From Halorussus sp. MSC15.2 (GTDB lineage: Archaea > Halobacteriota > Halobacteria > Halobacteriales > Haladaptataceae): a stretch of 64,000 nucleotides of DNA. The notes beneath the pieces are model-generated. The model worked only from the letters and a program-made list of their open reading frames with translations, did not search any database and was not told where the DNA came from. The position numbers were made by a program, and so were the translations under genes. The DNA lies in contig NZ_VSLZ01000008.1 of assembly GCF_010747475.1 (NCBI RefSeq), positions 1-64,000 on the forward strand, read 5' to 3'. Positions 39,595 to 44,869 of the stretch are shown piece after piece (position 1 is the first letter of the stretch; the number at the start of each line of letters is the position of its first letter).

Positions 39595-40053
39595 GTGACT
39601 CAGGTCTGTCTCGTCGGTTCCGAGGGCGTGGACCTCCGCACCGAACTCGTCTCGCGCGAGACCGCCCGCGAGGCGCTGGCCACCTACGACCTCCGGGAGG
39701 AGTACGAGAACTCGCTGACCGTCGAAACCATCAGCCTCGGCTCCGCGGTGGCGCTGTTGAACGACCTGAACTGGTATCTCGTCCGGTTCGCCGACGACGC
39801 GCTGGTCCTCGAACCGAGCGTCAGCGAGACCGAGTGGCTCTCGCGAGACCTCGCAGAAGCGGTTCGGGACGGCGAAATCGAACCGGAAGCGACCGACCGC
39901 TACCTCAAGGTCTACGGCCTGACCGCGGAGGGCCGACTCGTCGAACCGATGTTCGTGGCCCGCCGCGAGGACGGCGAGATACCGAGCTACGACCTGCGAG
40001 ACGTGGAAGACACCGTCGTCGTTCGCGTCGCCGAAGACGAGTTCGCCGGCTGA
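39595..40053 (+). CDS. Conserved haloarchaeal protein (DUF5804-like)
   Basis: 152 residues, soluble, acidic. Starts with GTG at 39595, 27 bp after the TATA-like CTTTA (39566-39570). The N-terminus TQVCLVGSEGVDLRTELVSRET and the LNDLNWYLVRFADDALVLEPSVSETEW block agree with my memory of DUF5804, present in most haloarchaea. No catalytic motif visible; function unknown. Confidence 0.75.
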   Translation: MTQVCLVGSEGVDLRTELVSRETAREALATYDLREEYENSLTVETISLGSAVALLNDLNWYLVRFADDALVLEPSVSETEWLSRDLAEAVRDGEIEPEATDRYLKVYGLTAEGRLVEPMFVARREDGEIPSYDLRDVEDTVVVRVAEDEFAG

Positions 40054-40064
40054 GGGCAGACTGC

Positions 40065-40332
40065 TCAAACTTCCACATCCCGGACGTTTTCCGCAAGTCC
40101 GTTGACCTCCTCGCGGAGGTCGGCTATCGCGTCGTCGGCCCACTCGAAGTAGACCCACTCGCGGTACTCGCCTTCCTCGTGGCGCTTCGGACGGTTCCTG
40201 CGCCGCAGGCCCACGACCGGTCTCGATTTCCACGAGACCGCAGTACTGAGTGGCGTCGTCCACGCCCGTCCGCTGAATTTTGCACTTCCGGCCCTTGTAC
40301 GTCCATCGCCTCGCCGTCTGCCAGAGTAACAT
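40065..40332 (-). pseudogene. Small conserved gene broken by a one-base frameshift
   Basis: Two frames together make a coherent acidic protein of about 88 residues: the first gives TYKGRKCKIQRTGVDDATQYCG and LVEIETGRG; the second gives NRPKRHEEGEYREWVYFEW, then ADDAIADLREEVNGLAENV to a TGA at 40065. The join is near 40205-40215, where an extra C in GGGCC would explain it. Codon use is normal for the chromosome on both sides. No family recognised. Decay or sequencing error are both possible. Confidence 0.55.
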
Positions 40333-40422
40333 GGGGAGGCTCTGGCTACGTCGAATCCATAGACCGTCTATGCTTTTCGGTGACCGGGCGACGATTGGAA
40401 GGCCGCGCGTCGTTAGTGTTCC

Positions 40423-40557
40423 GTGTCAACGAACAACGTTTCGAAAACCACCGTCTCGCTCGACGGGATACAAGTTCTAATGCTTCTAATATTATTCGTC
40501 GAGGGAAAAGTCAAGGAGTTCGTTGAGTTGATTCGTGGATTTCTCAATGAGTTGTAG
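40423..40557 (+). CDS. Possible 44-residue hydrophobic/amphipathic protein
   Basis: Open frame from GTG 40423 to TAG 40557. The sequence has a polar start (STNNVSKTTVSLDG), a short hydrophobic run (IQVLMLLILFV) and an amphipathic helix (EGKVKEFVELIRGFLNEL), the look of a membrane-active or membrane-attached small protein. ATG 40480 would leave 25 residues. No clear TATA box or ribosome binding site was found, so this is a weak call. It faces the membrane-protein gene at 40567 tail to tail. Confidence 0.3.
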   Translation: MSTNNVSKTTVSLDGIQVLMLLILFVEGKVKEFVELIRGFLNEL

Positions 40558-40566
40558 CGGGCAGTG

Positions 40567-40953
40567 CTATTTGACCACGTATCGGAGTCCTGCGCCGACG
40601 AGATGGGCAGGGAGCCCGAAGACGGCCCCCATCAGGAGCGCACGGAGGAACTCGCTAAGTAGAACGTTCGCGGGTGGTTGATTGGTCACGGCCGCGAGTG
40701 TGAACGCTCCAAGTGGAATTGACGTTGCAAGCACGAAACTAATCACGACCCCGCTATTCCGGTACGCGTTGACCAATGCGGTCAGAGCCATAACACCGAA
40801 CAGGCCGTATGCGAACCACTGCCGGTGCTTGAGAGTCGGTGTGAGCTTAAATAATATGGCTATTCCGGAGAAAAGGGCGAATCCGAGTCCGGTATGGTTA
40901 CGCGATATCGAGCGGGACCGACCGAATAACATCTCGTTGAGTTCGAACTCCAT
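40567..40953 (-). CDS. Small multipass membrane protein in the AT-rich island
   Basis: 128 residues with about four hydrophobic segments (HTGLGFALFSGIAILF, WFAYGLFGVMALTALV, VVISFVLATSIPLGAF, LLMGAVFGLPAHLVGAG). Codon use is less GC-biased than in neighbours. TTAAGTATAA near 40974-40983 is 25 bp from ATG 40953, a leaderless promoter. It lies downstream of, and on the same strand as, the Cys-rich peptide gene and could be an immunity or accessory membrane protein for it (inference). No family recognised. Confidence 0.65.
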   Translation of the reverse strand: MEFELNEMLFGRSRSISRNHTGLGFALFSGIAILFKLTPTLKHRQWFAYGLFGVMALTALVNAYRNSGVVISFVLATSIPLGAFTLAAVTNQPPANVLLSEFLRALLMGAVFGLPAHLVGAGLRYVVK

Positions 40954-41075
40954 ATCTTAATAAGATAATCCATTATACTTAAGTATTAATATGTGTATTC
41001 TGGTATAATATAGAAGTATTGACGCTTCGTCCAGTTCTCACTCGAAAACCGAGAATAATTTACGAGCTATGCATC

Positions 41076-41108
41076 GCTTCTGTCTAACCCTCTAAAGGAG
41101 ACAGAAGC
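41076..41108 (-). terminator. Perfect 10-bp hairpin overlapping the 3' end of the Cys-rich peptide gene
   Basis: GCTTCTGTCT (41076-41085) and AGACAGAAGC (41099-41108) are perfect complements with a 13-nt loop. The right arm is the last codons of the peptide gene and the loop contains its stop codon. It could act as terminator, transcript stabiliser or attenuator before the membrane-protein gene; no T-run follows on the minus strand, which argues against a simple intrinsic terminator. Confidence 0.5.
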
Positions 41109-41157
41109 AGAAACTCGTGCACTTGGGGCAGTTACCCTGAGGCTTGATGTCAATCAT
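41092..41157 (-). CDS. Cys-rich 21-residue micropeptide (candidate secreted or modified peptide)
   Basis: Reads MIDIKPQGN followed by CPKCTSFCFCLL and TAG: four cysteines in the last 12 residues. A perfect Shine-Dalgarno GGAGGTG (41170-41164) lies six bases before the ATG, rare in this mostly leaderless genome, and TTATTTTTAAG (41205-41195) is at the right distance for transcription to start about 17 bases before the ATG. An in-frame GTG three codons upstream is an alternative start. It is divergent from an ABC-2 exporter and upstream of a small membrane protein. It could be a bacteriocin-like or signalling peptide, a small metal-binding (CPxC) peptide, or a leader peptide controlling the next gene. 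No modification enzyme is visible nearby. Confidence 0.5.
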   Translation of the reverse strand: MIDIKPQGNCPKCTSFCFCLL

Positions 41158-41194
41158 TGGATTCACCTCCGCCAGATAATATTTCTCGCTTTCA

Positions 41195-41205
41195 CTTAAA
41201 AATAA
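41195..41205 (-). promoter_or_regulatory. TATA box of the Cys-rich peptide gene
   Basis: Minus-strand TTATTTTTAAG. Its centre is about 25 nt before a predicted transcription start near 41175, leaving a short leader with GGAGGTG before the ATG at 41157. Confidence 0.45.
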
Positions 41206-41418
41206 CTATATGAAAAATATTTGGTAACTATGAACAAGCATAATTTGAAGATTAAACATAAGTGTATGTCGAGATAATTTCTAATCTAGTGCACCAAATG
41301 TCTGCCTATCAACACCAGCCTCCAGTAATTCCGAGAAGAGTACTGCTGTCGAATTTCACAGTTTTTATTACATTTGGGTATCGTTCTATTTTAGTATAGA
41401 AAGTAAAAACTATATAAT

Positions 41419-42292
41419 ATGCATGAACTAGTGGTCGAAAGTGTCGGAAAGAAGTACGGAGACCTCTGGGCGCTTCGGAACTTCTCCCTCCGTGCCGACA
41501 CTGGTGTACTCGGCTTGCTTGGACCGAACGGAGCCGGGAAATCAACGTTGATGCGGATTATCGCGACAATTACCGAACCGACCGAAGGATTCGTGACGTG
41601 GGAGGGAACGAACGTCGTCACCTCGCCGGAAAGCATCCGCAAAGATATTGGTTACCTTCCCCAGAGTTTTGGGACGTACCCCGACCTGACAGCCGAGGAG
41701 TTTTTAGAGTACTTCGCAGCGCTGAATGGCGTCTCGGTGAAGCAGGGTAAGGAGCGAATCGACGAACTCCTTGATTTAGTTAATCTGGAAGACGCTAGAG
41801 ACCGAAAATTGGCTACCTTTTCGGGTGGCATGGAACAGCGTGTCGGTATCGCCCAGGCGCTACTTAACGACCCGAATATCTTGATAGTTGACGAGCCGAC
41901 CGTGGGTCTCGACCCCCAGGAGCGAGTCCGTTTTCGAAAACGTCCTGTCTAGTCTCGCCGACGACATCGTCGTAATTCTCTCTACGCACATTGTCTCCGA
42001 CATCGAGGCGACGGCGAGCGAAATCGCGGTGATGAACGACGGAACTCTCGTCACGCATACGACGCCAGAGTCGGGGATTTCGTCTGTCGAAGGCGACGTC
42101 TGGGAGTGGGTGGTTTCTAGCGAGAGACTCTCGAACGTCAAACGGGACCACCTCATCAGTACGACGACACGGCGGGCCGACGGCGTTCACGTTCGAGTCA
42201 TCTCTGACCAACCGCCGGACTCAGATGCGACTGCCGTCGAACCAACGCTCGAAGACGCCTATCTCGCCATGACGACCGGTGAGTCACGATGA
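41419..42292 (+). pseudogene. ABC-2 type exporter ATP-binding protein, frameshifted
   Basis: Walker A GPNGAGKST (about 33-41), Q-loop GYLPQSFGTYPDLTAEE, signature FSGGMEQRVGIAQAL and Walker B LIVDEPTVGLD are intact. The frame then breaks: after ERVRFR it runs into a stop at 41952, while the continuation NVLSSLADDIVVILSTHIVSD, with the switch His, is in another frame to 42292. An extra A in AAAA at 41937-41940 explains the shift; corrected length is about 290 residues. Its stop overlaps the permease ATG (ATGA). Could be functional if the indel is a sequencing error. Exporter type suits drug, peptide or immunity transport. Confidence 0.85.
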
Positions 42293-43757
42293 GCCAGCTT
42301 CGGGCCTGCTATCACGTCGCTCGGACCAGTTTCTACAGTCGCCTGGCAGGGTATCGACTCTTGGTTGTCGTGGTGGTTGGAGCGTACTTCGCACTCTCCA
42401 AGACTGCGACAGTCGGATTTGCGCGGGATTTAGCTGTTGACAACGCCGCGCTCGTCGGGTCTCACACCGCGGTCGTCGCAGCGATAACCATCCTCCTACT
42501 TGGCTTCTTTGTCGTCAGGGACGCGATAGCGATGGACCGCTACAATGGTCCTGGTGAGTTAATCGCCGCGACGCCGATTCGGAATCTTACCTACGTCTTT
42601 GGTAAGTGGCTCGGGAACGTTTCGGTTCTTACCGTCGCTTCGTTCATGATGGCGGTTATCGCCATTGTCCGATTTCAACTGCAGGGTGTCGGTCCCTTCA
42701 ACCTCTGGAAACTCCTCTCGCCGTTCGTACTGTTAACCATTCCGGCGGTGATGCTGGTCTCGGCACTCGCGCTCCTGTTCGAAACCGTCGAGAGACTTCG
42801 CGGTGGGTGGGCTAGTGTGGCCTACTTCCTCATGGTCATCCTTATTCTCGTCTCGGGCGTCGTGGACCCGATGGGAATCAGACCCGTTGTGTCCAGCATT
42901 CAGTCGGTGCCCGAGAGCCAGACATTAGACGGGCAGAAAGTGTGGCACGGACTCTCGCTGACTGGCGAGGTCGCACTCCGGCGGCTTCTGTACGCCGCGG
43001 CCGCGCTTGGTATCGTCGTCGTCAGCGCTGTCCGTTTCGACCGCTTCGACGGGAGCGACCACAGCGGTACTGACGCAAACGCCGACTCCGATATGAGTGG
43101 CGACGCGACTTCACCTGACCGGACCCCAGTCGGGACGTCGCTCTCTCCGGTAGAGACCAACGTCGGGTCGACCCCGTGCCGATTCTTCGCGCCGAAGGAC
43201 GGCTTGCGTTCCGGAGCCAGCGTCGGTGGTGGTACGTTGGCGGTGGGCTCCTCTGGCTCGCGTCCGTTCTCGTTCCGCTTTCGACTGTCCGCGATGCAGT
43301 TGTGCCACTACTCTGGATTTGGCCGCTCCTCGTCTGGTCGGAGATGGGTATTCGAGAGCGTCGCTATCGGACGACCGCATTAGTTGGGTCTTCCCGTTAC
43401 CCTATCGGACAACTTCTCGCCGTCTGGACCGTCGGAGTGGCGGTCGCGCTTTCCGTGACAGCAGGCCTCGGAGTTCGATTCCTACTGGTAGGCGACCTGA
43501 CGCAACTGCTTGCACTTCTTTCAGGTGCGGTTTTCGTTCCGTCTTTCGCTCTTGCGAGCGGTATCTGGAGCGGGACCCGTCGGTTGTTCGAAGGCATCTA
43601 CCTACTGCTCTGGTACGCAGGCGCACAAATCGGGTGGCTTGATTTCATGGGCGCAACGGGACGTGCTAGCATCGAAACGTCCGTCTCATTCGCCTGCTGT
43701 GCCGTCGTCCTTCTCTATCTGTCTATCGTCGGTCGCCGCCGACAATTCCAGCGTTAA
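42289..43757 (+). pseudogene. ABC-2 type exporter permease, frameshifted
   Basis: About 489 residues when corrected. First part (42289 to about 43170): six hydrophobic segments beginning RLLVVVVVGAYFALS and a Ser/Asp-rich linker near 255-300. Second part, in another frame from 43176 (VPILRAEGRLAFRSQRRWWY) to 43757: another six segments. A missing C in the CCCC run at 43172-43175 would rejoin them as a two-half permease. Operon with the ATPase gene by ATGA overlap. Together they look like an exporter without binding protein. Confidence 0.78.
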
Positions 43758-43784
43758 TTCCAAACCGCGTCCGGTTCATCGACT

Positions 43785-44869
43785 TCAGTCGAACATCCCG
43801 GTCGAGAGGTATCGCTCGCCGCTGTCGGGGAACACCGTCACGACCAGCGGGCAGTCGTCGTAGCCGTCGAGTGCGCCGCCGTCCGATTGAACTTCGGTCG
43901 CCGCTCCGCCAGTGGTACTCGCTTCGCCGCCGTCGGAGGCGACGAGGTCCTCGATTTCGTCGGGGGTCTCAGGGCAGTTCAGTTCGGGTCGGGCGATGCG
44001 CTCGGCGACGCGGCGGGCCGCGACCGCCGCCGCGCCCGACGACTGGCCGACGAGGATGCCCTCCTCGCGGGCGAGTCGGCGGGCCTCGCGTTCGGCGTCC
44101 TCCAGCGCCACCGTCTCGACGCCCGTGAGGAGGTCGGTGTCCAGCAGGTCGCTGACGAACCCCGGTCCCATCCCTTGGTAGTCGTCGTGTCCGGACTCGT
44201 CGGTCGGGAGGACGCCGTCTGAATCGTCCGACGCGCCGCCACTCAGTTCCCGGGTGAGGACCGCGTTGCGCTCGGGTTCGACCGCCACCACCTCCATCTC
44301 GGGGAACTCCTCCAGCAGGCGCGAGGCGGTGCCCGTGATGGTGCCGCCGGTACCCACCCCGGCCACGAAGGCGTCGATTTCCCGGCCTTCGACCTGCTCC
44401 AGTATCTCCTCGGCGGTCGTCCGGTAGTGGGCTCGGCGTTCGCGGGGTTGGCGAACTGCCCCATCTGGACGACGCCGTCCTCTTCGGCGAGTCGGTCGGC
44501 GCGCTCGCGGGCGTCCTCCATCTCGCCCTCGACCAGTTCGAGGTTCGCGCCGTACGCCCGCAGCAGTTTCCGACGCTCGGGTGATTTCGACGCGGGCATC
44601 ACGATGGTGAGGTCGTAGCCGCGGGCGGCGGCCGCCACTGCGAGACCGATGCCGGTGTTGCCGCTCGTGGGTTCGACGAGGTGGTCGCCCGGCGAGATGT
44701 CGCCCGCTCGCTCGGCGGCCGCTATCATCTCGCGCGCGGGACGGTCCTTGGCTGACCCGCCGGGGTTGAAACCCTCGACCTTCGCCGCTATCGTCGCGCC
44801 CTCGGGAGAGGAGACGCTGACGAGCGGCGACCCCACTGCGTCGAGGATAGATTCCTTCATTAGCTCCAT
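43785..44869 (-). pseudogene. cysK: Cysteine synthase / PLP-dependent beta-replacing enzyme, frameshifted
   Basis: Fold-type II PLP enzyme making cysteine from O-acetylserine and sulfide. PLP lysine in GGSAKDRPA, the SGNTGIGLAVAA pocket, then FVAGVGTGGTITG phosphate loop and a C-terminal SSGAAAVAARRVA. The reading frame breaks at about 44429-44431: FANPANAEP must be joined to HYRTTAEEILEQVEG, which needs one extra C. Corrected length about 361 residues (358 if ATG 44860, the more usual MKESIL start, is used). C-terminal 35 residues are an acidic/Gly extension with two CBS-unrelated segments. Codon use is normal, so a sequencing error is likely. Confidence 0.88.

Follow-up and report, generated by a model that had tools for sequence, protein, structure and literature searches.

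A conserved 21-codon gene for a cysteine-rich peptide beside an ABC-2 transporter in Halorussus

Introduction

Does the interval between cysK and the DUF5804 gene of Halorussus sp. MSC15.2 hold a gene for a 21-residue peptide and, if so, what might such a peptide do? The initial annotation of this DNA had proposed a complete small gene, with four cysteines in the last 12 residues of the product, a TATA box, a Shine-Dalgarno (SD) sequence with 6-base spacing and a terminal hairpin, the whole lying in a gene island that also encodes an ABC exporter; its suggested functions were a bacteriocin-like or signalling peptide, a metal-binding peptide, or a leader peptide sensing cysteine or metal. We followed up these proposals in the window, i.e., the whole stretch of 64,000 nucleotides that was analysed, and in related genomes. 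The outcome is a haloarchaeal peptide gene that is too short for usual gene finding and is supported by cross-species conservation.

The peptide ORF and its expression signals

The following features of the window describe the putative transcription unit:
41092–41157, minus strand: 21-codon ORF with product MIDIKPQGNCPKCTSFCFCLL and a TAG stop (sequence reading; homologue in the congener G020)
41163–41170, minus strand: Shine-Dalgarno sequence GGAGGTGA, ending 5 nt upstream of the ATG and unchanged in G020
41195–41212, minus strand: promoter-like CATATAGTTATTTTTAAG, partly conserved in G020 as CATATAGAAATATTTAAC (sequence and alignment with G020)
41076–41108, minus strand: hairpin GCTTCTGTCTCC...AGACAGAAGC, spanning the peptide stop codon; fold of -16.5 kcal/mol

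The ORF, which is unannotated, runs from an ATG at 41157–41155 to the TAG at 41094–41092, and its four Cys residues (positions 10, 13, 17 and 19) all fall among the final 12 residues, as had been claimed. The expression signals proposed earlier were likewise borne out. The SD-to-ATG spacing is 5 nt for GGAGGTGA, or the 6 nt given initially if the element is counted as GGAGGTG, and the TATA box corresponds to a TATA-like sequence, TTATTTTTAAG, at 41205–41195, about 40 nt before the peptide ATG; judging by its position, the mRNA would be expected to start near 41174. The stop-straddling hairpin, for which G020 has a similarly strong counterpart at the equivalent position, is possibly a terminator or stabiliser. 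ORFs that begin with ATG, encode 15–40 amino acids with at least four Cys and follow a strong SD sequence occur once in the 64-kb window, and were found neither in 10 first-order Markov versions of the window nor in 3000 Markov versions of the intergenic region. The computed monoisotopic mass of the unmodified, formyl-free peptide is 2360.09 for the window's genome and 2395.03 for G020.

Conservation of the reading frame

Among the 392 genomes of the order that were searched, a count that includes the window's own genome, one true homologue was identified, in G020: MIDLKPQGNCKNCTSFCFCPF (E 6e-8, L067:8800–8865). Its setting matches that in the window, with an ABC ATPase gene on one side and the gene for a 128-aa membrane protein on the other. 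The initial annotation had staked the gene on conservation of its frame in related islands, and the frame is indeed conserved in this sole other island-bearing genome. All other matches in the order had E values of 0.15 or worse; those readable in frame lay mostly inside longer frames of unrelated sequence, and none of them was recognisable as a homologue. Three further families yielded nothing, in sets that, unlike the order-wide search, had no positive control. In viral contigs two close peptide patterns had no match and a loose pattern retrieved 29 unrelated sequences; plasmids and phages gave only matches of E 6 or worse, and an Rfam search gave nothing.

The case for conservation, built on two homologous sequences only, is as follows. 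Over the ORF the two genomes share 79% of their nucleotides, as against a mean of 44% and a maximum of 62% in equally long windows of the flanks. The differences affect ten codons, one of which is the stop codon, changed yet still a stop; Gly8, Cys10, Ser15 and Cys19 carry silent changes, and I4L is a conservative one, so that the residues ahead of the first Cys read MIDIKPQGN or MIDLKPQGN. All four Cys are kept, as is TSFCF, and both SD and ATG are identical. Of the CPxC-x3-CxC pattern described initially, the spacing stood and the proline did not (CKNC in G020), leaving CxxC-x3-CxC as the conserved motif. The NG86 method gave dN 0.15 and dS 0.97 for the pair, i.e., a dN/dS of about 0.15. Given this ratio, the identity in excess of the flanks and the retention of Cys residues through silent changes, the ORF is, as judged from these comparisons, a genuine gene selected as a protein.

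These data also bear on whether the region is a conserved regulatory or RNA element in which the frame arose by chance. Such a reading could draw on there being two sequences only and on the 3'-end hairpin, which is kept in both species and could explain part of the conservation at that end. However, six of the seven changes in codons 1–19 (codon 11 excluded) fall at third positions (P 0.007), four silent changes preserve Gly, Cys, Ser and Cys, the SD and ATG are unchanged, and shuffled sequence contained no comparable ORF. We therefore consider an RNA element without a protein gene extremely improbable.

The island between cysK and the DUF5804 gene

Four genes, namely those for a permease, an ATPase, the peptide and a membrane protein here called tm128, make up the island, the first two being divergent from the last two:
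40567–40953, minus strand: tm128, a 128-aa predicted helical membrane protein, 66% identical in G020 and 52% in G025
40974–40982, minus strand: TATA-like TTAAGTATA, preceding the tm128 ATG by a distance that suits a leaderless transcript, with counterparts in G020 and G025
41419–42292, plus strand: ATPase of the ABC transporter, transcribed divergently from the peptide gene, its frame broken by one extra A near 41937; intact in G020 (292 aa)
42289–43757, plus strand: ABC-2-type permease, its frame interrupted near 43170–43250; intact in G020 (490 aa)

The island occupies about 3.5–3.7 kb between cysK and the DUF5804 gene in both genomes, and its GC content is 0.55 against 0.65 for the window, and 0.48 against 0.61 in G020. 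All 18 genomes of the genus examined have cysK, most with the DUF5804 gene beside it, and two of these 18 (the window's genome and G020) have the peptide together with the ABC pair. In G025 the peptide and the ABC pair are jointly absent from this site and an intact tm128 stands alone, an arrangement that would fit an orphan immunity gene and proves nothing. In thiI, G020 resembles G025 (93%) more than the window's genome (86%), whereas for tm128 the order is reversed (49 and 66%, respectively); this discord suggests that the island was exchanged, or that G025 lost part of it while the remainder changed faster. A small island that is gained or lost is the best explanation. A PADLOC search returned generic ATPase matches only and hence no defence system.

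Two observations concern the site itself. The cysK–DUF5804 interval (40053–43785 in the window) ranges from about 30 nt to more than 1 kb in congeners without the island, and is likely an insertion hotspot. In addition, three frames, those of the ATPase, the permease and cysK, are broken within about 3 kb of the window (41419–44869), the ATPase by an extra A within CGAAAACG; the adjoining genes are intact, as are all three frames in G020. A local sequence error is plausible since cysK is present throughout the genus, and the breaks could also be decay.

tm128 had no family match above cut-off, and its predicted structure is helical with a mean pLDDT of 56, too poor for structure search. By position it is a possible immunity factor. 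Its gene lies about 140 nt downstream of the peptide gene in the same direction, and this raises the prospect that the peptide ORF is a cis-acting leader in which stalling at Cys codons would alter the stop-straddling hairpin and hence the expression of tm128. In size and layout the ORF does resemble the amino-acid-sensing leader peptides, being short, rich in a single amino acid and closed by a hairpin, which spans the stop in both species. Unlike the gene downstream of such attenuators, tm128 comes with a TATA-like element of its own, placed as for a leaderless mRNA and present in three species including the peptide-less G025, and MIDxKPQGN and TSFCF are kept as residues, which a leader that merely counts codons does not need. 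An attenuator is thus disfavoured, and we regard the cysteine-sensing role among the functions first suggested as very unlikely; read-through from the peptide promoter into tm128 is possible.

The ABC transporter family

The best family matches of the island ATPase are the DrrA and lantibiotic-protection ABC-2 transporters (NCBIfam TIGR01188 and TIGR03740), although all are far below the curated cut-offs; the permease is likewise of ABC-2 type. A PDB search showed resemblance of the ATPase to those of ABCA and NosF, which is too unspecific to point to a substrate. Within the order, 48 of 382 genomes have matches to the ATPase at E 1e-50 or better, mostly with 50–64% identity. Up to 18 kb were inspected round each of 20 members, most of them among the highest-ranked matches and picked without reference to their neighbours, and round two paralogues from the window's genome, giving 22 loci.

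At 6 of the 22 loci the ATPase has a LanM and/or DUF6895 gene no more than 6 kb away, measured to whichever is nearer. The loci bearing DUF6895, described as an epimerase for lasso peptides in a title that PMC13352647 cites, are L183, L189, L193, L203, L204 and L207; L183 and L193 also have LanM, and a second ABC pair of a shared type is present in 5 of the 6. Control loci totalling 341 kb contained neither gene, and if these genes are assumed to occur at 3 per Mb, the Poisson probability of six such loci is still only about 0.001. In the genome_contigs scan with the ATPase as query, the closest match (52%), from Thermosporothrix hazakensis, adjoins Lant_dehydr_N (LanB-like) and LANC_like genes. 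By gene neighbourhood, then, the family is linked to peptide-maturation genes, and the exporter that had been noted beside the peptide belongs to a family found repeatedly near the maturation genes of ribosomal peptides. Sixteen of the 22 loci have no peptide-maturation gene; the family is therefore no proof of a peptide substrate, and it would not be a peptide exporter only. No Cys-rich analogue of the island peptide was found beside the other family members.

Two small ORFs were seen at the DUF6895 loci. L189:10309–10491 (minus strand) and L203:6391–6570 (plus strand), from two genera and both at loci with a double ABC pair, share a small protein (..SLTEKLHVKIPFSRSYVFNGQKGAFIIKYDRQRPIDRVLDE..) with 43–48% identity, which is a candidate for the ribosomal-peptide precursor in a haloarchaeal cluster with DUF6895. 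L203:6763–6891 (plus strand) is a 42-aa ORF, MTNELTIGELTELSEGGIEKRADYIIGWSSFIIDCEDGVCEN, upstream of the DUF6895 gene and resembling a leader followed by a Cys-containing core.

A proposed export island

At both peptide loci (2 of 2) the ABC genes adjoin the peptide gene and co-occur with it, as a bacteriocin exporter would. Since this type of export pump is often found beside peptide-antibiotic genes, the product is probably a small secreted peptide of salt-loving archaea. The reading that we favour, at a probability of roughly 45%, is that the island is a minimal one serving the export of a Cys-rich peptide that resembles a bacteriocin or a signal, with tm128 as a possible immunity factor; this leaves the bacteriocin-like or signalling role as the best candidate among the functions first suggested. 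The peptide would be produced from its own promoter via a short SD-led mRNA, and the divergent ABC-2 transporter would secrete it or protect its maker. Outside the cell it may act as a bacteriocin or a signal, its cysteines being stabilised by disulfides, by a metal or by an enzyme encoded elsewhere, and tm128 may serve in self-protection or as an accessory factor. We infer export, action outside the cell and the part played by tm128; past the reality of the gene, our ranking of mechanisms is also a matter of inference.

The island encodes no maturation enzyme or protease, and the peptide contains no recognisable leader. The fuller picture of a minimal archaeal weapon or signal, i.e., a practically leaderless 21-residue, four-Cys peptide without local maturase, with dedicated ABC-2 export and a new 128-aa immunity protein, is tentative and on balance doubtful. 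The characterised archaeal peptides are mostly lanthipeptides and halocins, and this one, if secreted, would add a type that has no maturation enzyme at its locus. If the fuller picture is true, minimal weapon or signal systems are likely missed by searches keyed to maturation enzymes. The exporter family can guide the discovery of further hidden archaeal peptide genes.

Metal binding and maturation in trans

The same cysteines may instead hold zinc or another metal, in which case the product would be an intracellular micropeptide acting as a metal or thiol buffer or regulator while the transporter exports something else. All four Cys are conserved, two of them through silent codon changes, and haloarchaea commonly have small proteins with four Cys (PMC11241148); the very small C(P)XCG zinc-finger proteins described there also have four Cys in two pairs. 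Those proteins have two CxxC knuckles with conserved P and G, whereas the second pair of the island peptide is CxC, its proline is unconserved and no glycine follows either pair. Moreover, at 21 aa it is shorter than any C(P)XCG protein listed for H. volcanii, for which none below 30 aa is known (PMC11241148), and the ABC pair always accompanies it (two cases). A CPxCG zinc-finger identity is thus disfavoured; the metal-binding function suggested at the outset would lie outside that class, and we judge it unlikely.

A further alternative to the favoured export island makes the ORF an orphan precursor, of a lanthipeptide or another modified peptide, on which a LanM or YcaO from elsewhere in the genome would act in trans. 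Both genomes encode LanM (2 and 4 matches) and YcaO proteins, and the peptide combines Ser/Thr with Cys in its core (T14, S15 and the four Cys, all conserved), as class II lanthipeptides do. It also recalls archalan and pellan, class II lanthipeptides of the same or a near genus that comprise LanA, LanM and a transporter (PMC10105419; PMC12144867), in being a short Cys-rich peptide with Thr/Ser and a transporter nearby; the island ABC family itself occurs near LanM in the window's genome (L183) and in G340 (L193). In contrast to these systems, neither island contains LanM, whose genes lie elsewhere, nor the YcaO expected of a thiazole/oxazole-modified peptide (TOMM), which is encoded on other contigs or far away. 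LanA candidates near the LanM genes of both genomes are 32–62 aa with long acidic leaders; the island peptide has at most nine residues ahead of its first Cys and no Kx(Y/F)(D/E)xx(F/Y)-type leader motif, and it is therefore no canonical LanA. Maturation in trans appears quite unlikely to us.

The pellan core, published from 'H. pelagicus RC-68' (PMC12144867), is also present in G020, where the candidate at L187:8359–8511 (minus strand) contains the identical STGCYISDKPVCI; a second copy at L187:8671–8823 has a different core, SSICGASMDPICG. In the window's genome, up to three LanA-like ORFs (L183:8106–8621, minus strand), with the cores ACGSLTCFWDSDSN, ECFSLTCFVGSDSS and EFCPSSICG, precede a LanM whose two domains are split over two adjacent, overlapping ORFs.
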